From Bacteroidales bacterium (GTDB lineage Bacteria > Bacteroidota > Bacteroidia > Bacteroidales > Bacteroidaceae), in assembly GCA_029218405.1 (NCBI GenBank), contig JAQXRG010000055.1:1-64000 (forward strand): a stretch of 64,000 bases of DNA, in the 5' to 3' direction. Of this stretch, positions 2,063 to 3,833 are shown one piece after another. Position 1 is the first letter of the stretch. Each line of letters begins with the position of its first letter. The notes under the pieces were generated by a model. It did not search any database and was not told where the DNA came from. It saw only the letters and a program-made list of their open reading frames with translations. Both the position numbers and the translations under genes were made by a program.

Positions 2063-2989
2063 TCACACCCGCTGCTCGGTGTTGTTGAGCTTCAGCATCC
2101 GCGGAGGCACGCAGCGCACGATGTTCTCCACCAGCAGGTCGCGCAGGGAGTGGCGCACAAAGTCGCGCGAGGTCATCAGCACAATCTGCCGGGTGGGAAT
2201 GGGCAAGGCAAACGGACGGACCAGCTCCTTCTGCACTCCGGAGAGCTGCTCCAAGGCCAGCTCGGGAATAAAGGTGACCCCCTGGCCGCCCTCCACCATG
2301 CGCATAAAGGTCTCGATGCTGCCAAGCGTGTAGGCTTCCTGTGCCTCGCGGGCCGACTTGAGCCGGCAGAACTTCACCAACTGGTCGCGGAAGCAATGCC
2401 CCTCATCGAGCAGCCATAGCTGCTCATCCTCCAGGTCGGCGGTACGGACCGAACGGCAGGCGAACAAAGGGTCCTCGCGCGACACATAGACGATGAACTG
2501 CTCGTAGTAGAGCGGCACTTGCTCGTAGTCCTCCATATCCGGCAGACTGACCAGCACCGCCGCATCGAGGGTTCCCTCGCGCAACGCCCGACAGATGTCC
2601 GCCGTCTTCAGCTCCGTCACCCGGAGGTCGGTTTCCGGATGCTCCTTCCGGAGCCGGGGGAAGAAACGAGGCAAGAGGTAAGGCGCAATGGTCGGCAGCA
2701 CCCCCAGCCGGAAAGTGCCTGCCAACGAATGACGCTCTTCATCGACGAGCTCTTTCACCCGGGCGGCGGCGGCCAACACCTCCTCGGCCTGCTCCACCAC
2801 CCGCAGTCCGATACGGGTCGGCGTGACCTGCTGTGAGGAGCGTTCGAAAAGCTTCAGTCCCAGCTCAGCCTCTAACTTCTGCACCATGGCGCTCAACGTA
2901 GGCTGAGTGACGCCACACTGTTCGGCAGCCCGCGCGAAATGGCGCATGCGACAGACTGCCACGATGTATTCAAGTTGTTGCAATGTCAT
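2063..2989 (-). CDS. oxyR: LysR-family hydrogen-peroxide-responsive regulator OxyR
   Basis: MTLQQLEYIVAVCRMRHFARAAEQCGVTQPTLSAMVQKLEAELGLKLFERSSQQVTPT, a LysR HTH. Effector domain contains an OxyR-like Cys segment (LLDEGHCFRDQLVKFC). First ATG at 2989; the longer ORF starts with TTG. Confidence 0.88.
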   Translation of the reverse strand: MTLQQLEYIVAVCRMRHFARAAEQCGVTQPTLSAMVQKLEAELGLKLFERSSQQVTPTRIGLRVVEQAEEVLAAAARVKELVDEERHSLAGTFRLGVLPTIAPYLLPRFFPRLRKEHPETDLRVTELKTADICRALREGTLDAAVLVSLPDMEDYEQVPLYYEQFIVYVSREDPLFACRSVRTADLEDEQLWLLDEGHCFRDQLVKFCRLKSAREAQEAYTLGSIETFMRMVEGGQGVTFIPELALEQLSGVQKELVRPFALPIPTRQIVLMTSRDFVRHSLRDLLVENIVRCVPPRMLKLNNTEQRV

Positions 2990-3010: not shown

Positions 3011-3042
3011 CAAAGATAAATAGATTTCATCACACCTGCAAA
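3011..3042 (-). promoter_or_regulatory. Bacteroidetes-type promoter for oxyR (TTTG-N20-TATCTTTG)
   Basis: Minus strand: TTTG at 3042-3039, 20-nt spacer, TATCTTTG at 3018-3011, about 22 nt upstream of ATG 2989. Confidence 0.6.
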
Positions 3043-3066
3043 CGAGTCTGAATAGATTTCATCTAT
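3019..3066. promoter_or_regulatory. Two OxyR-box-like motifs (AATAGATTTCATC direct repeat, 32-bp spacing; second copy ATAGATTTCATCTAT)
   Basis: 3019-3031 and 3051-3063 are identical 13-mers. 3052-3066 fits ATAGnTnnnAnCTAT exactly. Confidence 0.6.
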
Positions 3067-3086
3067 CCTATCATCGGATTTGTCTG

Positions 3087-3117
3087 TTGGCAGTGAACAA
3101 AATTCTGTGTAAGTTTG
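3087..3117 (+). promoter_or_regulatory. Bacteroidetes-type promoter for the PTPS-like gene (TTG-N20-TAAGTTTG)
   Basis: TTG 3087-3089, TAAGTTTG 3110-3117. Confidence 0.6.
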
Positions 3118-3189: not shown

Positions 3190-3753
3190 ATGAGAAGTAT
3201 TACTACATTTGACTTACAGTACGCACACCGTTTCTATGGATTCCAAGGCGAAGCCCAATACCTGCACGGCCACACCGGCGTGTTGACCATCGAGGTGGAA
3301 GACAGCGTAAACCCTGGTGTGAACATGGTCTATCCGTGTAACGAAATACAGAAAGTGGCATGGGACGTGCTGAAGAACTTCGACCACGCCCTCGTGCTCC
3401 GCGAGGATGACCCGTTGCTGCCTGCCATCCTCGACGTGTACGAAAAGCAAGGCATCAAGAACGGACACCCGCAGAACACCATGAAGGGAGCCGCTTTCAA
3501 GACCGAACTCTGCACCGCCTATCCCGACTGCCGCCTCGTGGTGACGAAGGAGACCCTGACGGTGGAAGGCATGATCAAGATGGTGTACGACCTGCTGAAG
3601 GACAAACTCAACATCGCCAAGCTGACCTTCACCAGTGGTGTGAACGCCGCTTCCTGCGAGTTTACCGACCGCAAGGAAATTGACCGTTGCCCGCTCTGCG
3701 GCATCGCTCTCGACGAGAACGGCGTCTGCCCCAAGTGCGGCTACCGCAAGTAA
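3190..3753 (+). CDS. 6-pyruvoyl-tetrahydropterin synthase/QueD-like protein with C-terminal zinc ribbon
   Basis: PTPS zinc ligands (AHRF...YLHGH), FDHALV dyad, and a C-terminal CPLC-N9-CPKC tail. The catalytic Cys position reads Ala (AQYLHGH). Confidence 0.85.
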   Translation: MRSITTFDLQYAHRFYGFQGEAQYLHGHTGVLTIEVEDSVNPGVNMVYPCNEIQKVAWDVLKNFDHALVLREDDPLLPAILDVYEKQGIKNGHPQNTMKGAAFKTELCTAYPDCRLVVTKETLTVEGMIKMVYDLLKDKLNIAKLTFTSGVNAASCEFTDRKEIDRCPLCGIALDENGVCPKCGYRK

Positions 3754-3788
3754 GCCCCTGACAGAAAGAGCCTCTCTCTTTCTGATAA

Positions 3789-3833
3789 CAAAGACACAAA
3801 GACCCGTCAGCCAACGACCTCTTTGTGTCTTTG
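3789..3833 (+). terminator. Hairpin after the PTPS gene (14-bp stem CAAAGACACAAAGA / TCTTTGTGTCTTTG)
   Basis: Perfect 14-bp inverted repeat with a 17-nt loop. Confidence 0.6.

Follow-up and report, generated by a model that had tools for sequence, protein, structure and literature searches.

In Escherichia coli, the peroxide sensor OxyR relies on the cysteines C199 and C208, and its operators (katG, ahpC, dps, oxyS) consist of a tandem of two half-sites of the form ATAGnTnnnAnCTAT, the proximal of which is located in the −35/−33 region; the consensus spacing between the half-sites is 22 bp. Half-sites near −63 and −42 are the usual layout of LysR-type activation. Homologous regulators from the same order as the bacterium considered here are the OxyR proteins of Bacteroides fragilis, Porphyromonas gingivalis, and Prevotella intermedia, and in Prevotella, oxyR is reported to be located near or divergent to ahpCF (PMC7999485). 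PerR–rubrerythrin regulons have been described in B. thetaiotaomicron (BT0215–BT0216; PMC12596196) and C. difficile (rbr–perR–sor–CD0828; PMC11980386).

The locus described here was found in a 64-kb stretch of DNA, referred to below as the window, in which oxyR (2063–2989, minus strand) is divergent from a PTPS-like gene (3190–3753, plus strand). The 308-amino-acid product of the former is a LysR-type peroxide sensor, containing GHCFRDQLVKFC with C199 and C208, and its assignment to OxyR is based on its domains (an N-terminal LysR HTH, PF00126, and a LysR substrate domain, PF03466), its redox cysteines, which were present in 15 of 15 OxyRs compared, and its nearest relatives. The closest solved structure was that of P. 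gingivalis OxyR (3ho7, E = 1.4e-67), and the top NCBIfam model was PRK11151 (OxyR), with a score of 226.8 bits, which is below the equivalog cut-off of that model (329).

In terms of the intergenic sequence, the 13-mer AATAGATTTCATC occurs at 3019–3031 and 3051–3063, 32 bp apart, exactly as the earlier note had reported, and these are its only zero-mismatch copies in the window. The sequence ATAGATTTCATCTAT at 3052–3066 (plus strand; W1), also recognized in that note, is an exact OxyR half-site of the form ATAGnTnnnAnCTAT; no other exact match occurs in the window, and the 2.71-Mb genome holds just one more, on contig C104, away from oxyR. Shuffled 20,000 times at the dinucleotide level, the 200-bp intergenic region produced the exact 15-mer half-site pattern in two cases and an exact 13-bp repeat of any sequence in 37. 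A chance motif is ruled out by the conservation, OxyR co-occurrence, and target genes described below. The site had been read as a half-operator ending about 20 bp short of the −33 TTG; instead, a second half-site, ATCGGATTTGTCTGT at 3073–3087 (plus strand; W2), was overlooked. It follows W1 by 21 bp, or roughly two helix turns, so that the full tandem spans 3052–3087 and overlaps the −33 box.

The promoter elements of both genes are where they had been placed. The PTPS-like promoter has a −33 TTG at 3087–3089 and, 20 bp after it, a −7 box, TAAGTTTG, at 3110–3117 (both plus strand); the T-T pair of the former and the nAnnTTTG of the latter were invariant in 28 aligned loci. The oxyR promoter, on the minus strand, was identified from its sequence as a TTTG −33 box at 3039–3042 and, 20 bp away, a −7 box, TATCTTTG, at 3011–3018. 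If transcription of the PTPS-like gene starts about 5 bp past its −7 box, as we assume, W1 is centered near −63 and W2 near −42, touching the −33 element.

From this position of the operator, we infer activation by peroxide; OxyR would be the bound protein and H2O2 the signal. An OxyR tetramer produced from the divergent gene would bind two ATAG(N7)CTAT-type half-sites with centers 21 bp apart, the promoter-proximal one touching the −33 element of the PTPS-like promoter. Because of this contact, OxyR oxidized by H2O2 (C199–C208 disulfide) would be able to reach RNA polymerase and switch the PTPS-like gene on. The PTPS-like protein would thus belong to the peroxide regulon, as the only member detected in the draft genome. 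Judged from the sequence, we consider it highly probable that 3052–3087 is a complete tandem OxyR operator and that the PTPS-like protein is a peroxide regulon member switched by H2O2.

To characterize the operator beyond this locus, three models were used: R1, trained on PTPS promoters and run on the genomes of 60 relatives; R2, restricted to the operator; and R3, built from non-PTPS sites only, which were chosen through R1, so that R3 is supporting and not fully independent. R1 matches with E < 1e-4 were found in 19 of 26 OxyR-positive genomes and in 0 of 34 OxyR-negative genomes (p = 3e-10; p = 4e-9 without the three training genomes). No R1 site was found in two genomes with a stop in the OxyR-like frame (G014 and G017), and no strong site in the OxyR-positive genomes G005 and G035. 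Among the 28 non-PTPS R1 matches at the same threshold, 22 precede classical peroxide or redox genes, encoding thioredoxin (trx, seven), superoxide reductase (five), dps (three), ahpC (two), peroxiredoxin (two), tpx (two), and SOD (one); of the other six, some are at contig ends and the rest precede an HlyIII-family gene or unnamed genes. Gene identity played no part in selecting these sites, and the motif, which in OxyR-bearing genomes precedes other peroxide genes, is thus identified as the OxyR operator. With R3, the best match in the 64-kb window was the PTPS site (E = 3.5e-5), and the top 15 matches in 706 kb were PTPS promoters. OxyR-type sites were also observed before an HlyIII-family gene in genome G010 (L167) and directly before a small rubredoxin-like gene in genome G009 (L173:991–1272). 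Within the window, a one-mismatch OxyR half-site, ATAGATGTTTTCTAT, is located at 1983–1997, upstream of an RND efflux gene and overlapping its −7 box (TATATTTG, minus strand); neither R2 nor R3 recovers it as an operator.

These targets bear on an alternative in which reduced OxyR represses the PTPS-like gene, or in which a constitutive PTPS-like gene is merely tuned by the OxyR site. The overlap between the operator and the −33 box would suit such a role, and OxyR is reported to act as a repressor in some bacteria (e.g., PMC3306370). However, the same geometry is found at the ahpC, dps, trx, and tpx promoters, and the PTPS-like gene is linked elsewhere to perR-like genes or rubrerythrin, which together make repression or tuning improbable. 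In model species, OxyR induces the homologues of these four genes (ahpC, dps, trx, and tpx).

The conservation of the operator was followed by scanning 84,980 genomes with the PTPS-like protein and taking the best 80 of 332 loci, each with at least 87% identity. Among these 80, oxyR is directly divergent from the PTPS-like gene in 14 distinct loci, including the window. When the orthologous oxyR–PTPS intergenic regions were aligned, as the earlier note had suggested, the motif proved to be conserved: the tandem operator and promoter are kept in 12 of the 14 divergons, as a composite of W1 (ATAGAnnnnnTCTAT), 6 bp, W2 (ATnnnnnnnTCTGT), TTG or TTTG, about 20 bp, and TAnnTTTG. The 21-bp register between W1 and W2 was unchanged across 28 aligned loci. 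The composite also precedes the PTPS-like gene in 17 checked loci without an adjacent oxyR. An OxyR with no less than 50% identity was encoded in 14 of these 17 genomes (in one case as a fragment at a contig end), compared with 2 of 33 genomes with an operator-less PTPS-like gene (Fisher p = 7e-8, in counts that include many close relatives and are not independent events). The operator-positive PTPS genomes without an OxyR match were the drafts represented by L040, L079, and L111. In L076, the operator is located between oxyR and an operon that runs rubrerythrin, flavin reductase with a rubredoxin domain (named by reading its sequence), and PTPS. One relative (G013) carries two oxyR/PTPS divergons (contigs C56 and C110), both with the operator, whose OxyRs are 85% and 63% identical to that of the window.

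The canonical operator is absent in two divergons (L060 and L068). In L060, the recognition helix of OxyR is altered (AHSTLCYMVQ vs. TQPTLSAMIQ) and the intergenic region (L060:3950–4171) lacks ATAG half-sites; its best direct repeat is of another word, ATTCGAAnCCATC, with exactly the 21-bp spacing and at the same place before the PTPS-like gene. This looks like one example of regulator–operator co-evolution.

The site might instead serve mainly in the autoregulation of oxyR, the PTPS-like gene being an incidental neighbor, as in many LysR divergons. The location of the site between both genes fits this idea, as do the extra copy within the oxyR promoter spacer and an oxyR-type −7 box that lies 29–33 bp from W1 in six or more of the 12 divergons with the operator. 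However, the operator precedes the PTPS-like gene in the 17 loci without an adjacent oxyR, and its register is locked to the −33 and −7 boxes of that gene, whereas its distance to oxyR varies from 29 to 73 bp, so we regard this explanation as very improbable. OxyR may nevertheless regulate its own gene from the main operator at 3052–3087 as well as the PTPS-like gene.

The extra copy was assessed separately. As the earlier note had stated, it is degenerate and located within the oxyR promoter spacer; it spans 3019–3034 (plus strand) and fits 7 of 10 consensus positions. One close relative (L046) has a counterpart, likewise 32 bp away, with 5 of 10 consensus positions, indicating partial sharing, and no counterpart was found in the other divergons. 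It scored only E = 3–7 in 64 kb (R2 and R3) and is at most a candidate repressor site. Its 32-bp spacing corresponds to three helix turns and could matter. The proposal that OxyR represses itself while controlling the PTPS-like gene thus divides into two parts: self-repression through the 3019 copy was not supported, whereas control of the PTPS-like gene was, by the conserved operator, the PTPS loci without an adjacent oxyR, the co-occurrence with OxyR, and the operator shared with ahpC, dps, trx, tpx, and other genes of relatives. It is very likely that OxyR, with both C199 and C208 present, controls this gene. That another LysR-type or different regulator binds the site is the least probable explanation of all, for although three operator-positive genomes had no OxyR match and similar dyad sites are common to LysR proteins, the fit to the OxyR half-site is exact, oxyR adjoins the operator in 12 loci, the 34 OxyR-negative genomes contained no strong site, and the targets are peroxide genes.

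The PTPS-like protein is composed of 187 amino acids, with a T-fold (COG0720) and a C-terminal CxxC...CxxC zinc ribbon. Its membership of the COG0720/PTPS fold was supported by a match to the Pfam PTPS family (PF01242; E = 8e-12; 45.6 bits against a cut-off of 22.4) and by a Foldseek match between its predicted model (pLDDT 71) and QueD (E = 6e-5); a search of solved structures with the sequence alone gave nothing, and one with a profile gave only E = 0.04. The protein is 87–94% identical in 37 other loci, and GEAQYLHGH is present in 38 of 38 aligned copies. The catalytic signatures of the known families are replaced: Ala22 stands for the Cys of the QueD/PTPS-I motif CxxxHGH (AQYLHGH, 38 of 38 aligned), Gln23 for the Glu of the PTPS-III motif ExxHGH (QYLHGH; PMC5041015), and QGEAQ is at the place of the PTPS-IV signature FGPAQ (PMC5445326); the motif CxxxxxHGH is also absent from the protein. 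The Zn-binding His triad (H13, H26, and H28) and D65–H66 are kept, and from the predicted secondary structure, Ser149 appears to stand where QueD has its pterin-binding Glu. The protein is annotated as a pterin/queuosine enzyme but is probably not one. Most members of the genus encode a separate canonical QueD. The genomes G000, G013, and G018 (L221–L223) contain QueC and a QueF-like gene; no canonical QueD was found in them, and their sole COG0720 member is the PTPS-like protein. The use of this protein as a QueD substitute in the window lineage is possible, but is disfavored by the missing Cys and Glu. Downstream of the gene, an RNA hairpin at 3762–3784 (plus strand; −10.9 kcal/mol, z = −3.2) has no T-run, and the terminator scan did not report it; it is compatible with a one-gene transcript. 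The stretch that separates the PTPS-like gene from putA contains, at 3762–3830, two strong RNA hairpins with a combined z of −6.5 and no T-run.

In the window genome, the PTPS site was the only clear OxyR site, with both R1 (E = 1e-10; next match, 0.014) and R2 (E = 1.6e-6; next match, 0.22). AhpC and a 1-Cys peroxiredoxin were not found in this draft, and the closest relatives by OxyR, G013 and G018, lacked AhpC and contained only oxyR/PTPS operators with R2; these three genomes are 83–92% complete, so the absences are provisional. At many operator-less loci, in lineages poor in OxyR, the PTPS-like protein (at least 87% identical) is encoded behind a Fur-family gene or rubrerythrin. The loci linked to Fur-family genes carry Bacteroides, Alistipes, and Clostridia labels, and the context of these genes suggests that they are perR, not fur. 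Several loci with neither gene have PerR-box-like palindromes upstream (e.g., L065 and L075, 13 of 14 positions; L041, 12 of 14). The PTPS-like protein is 87–94% identical across loci labeled Bacteroidales, Clostridia, and Victivallales (L035–L114), where the regulators differ. This combination points either to a recent horizontal spread of the protein or to extreme constraint on it; some lineage labels may be binning errors.

More tentatively, and with slightly less than even confidence, we suggest that this T-fold protein, without the known PTPS/QueD catalytic residues and with a gained zinc ribbon, is an unrecognized peroxide-defense protein of anaerobic gut bacteria, which is near-invariant and has been passed between OxyR control (Prevotella-like bacteria) and PerR control (Bacteroides, Alistipes, and Clostridia), and which is the sole OxyR output in the window lineage, where no AhpC was found. 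No paper was found, in the literature searched, that mentions this PTPS-like gene by name together with OxyR, PerR, or rubrerythrin. A peroxide-stress role is assigned, through its regulation, to a very conserved protein, and a direct test of the role of COG0720 paralogues without the catalytic cysteine is offered. The peroxide regulons of Prevotella-like bacteria have been little studied, and the analysis also yields a 40-bp model of the OxyR operator that can be used in this group.

Compared with QueD (PTPS-I) and PTPS-II, -III, and -IV, the PTPS-like protein has the T-fold, His triad, and D65–H66 in common, but differs from the COG0720 enzymes in its QGEAQYLHGH sequence (to which the FGPAQ of PTPS-IV is nearest), an insert, and the zinc ribbon. 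Whereas the Prevotella oxyR is associated with ahpCF, the divergent partner of the window oxyR is the PTPS-like gene, and no AhpC was found in its genome. The PerR–rubrerythrin regulons resemble the other loci of this protein, where its gene is preceded by a Fur/PerR-family gene, rubrerythrin, or PerR-box-like sites; however, PerR is a repressor, whereas the sensor in the window is OxyR, an activator. Relative to the operators of E. coli, with which it shares the tandem half-sites, the position of the proximal half, and the C199/C208 sensor, the operator described here is distinguished by its 21-bp spacing, its Bacteroidetes −33/−7 promoter, and its PTPS-like target.
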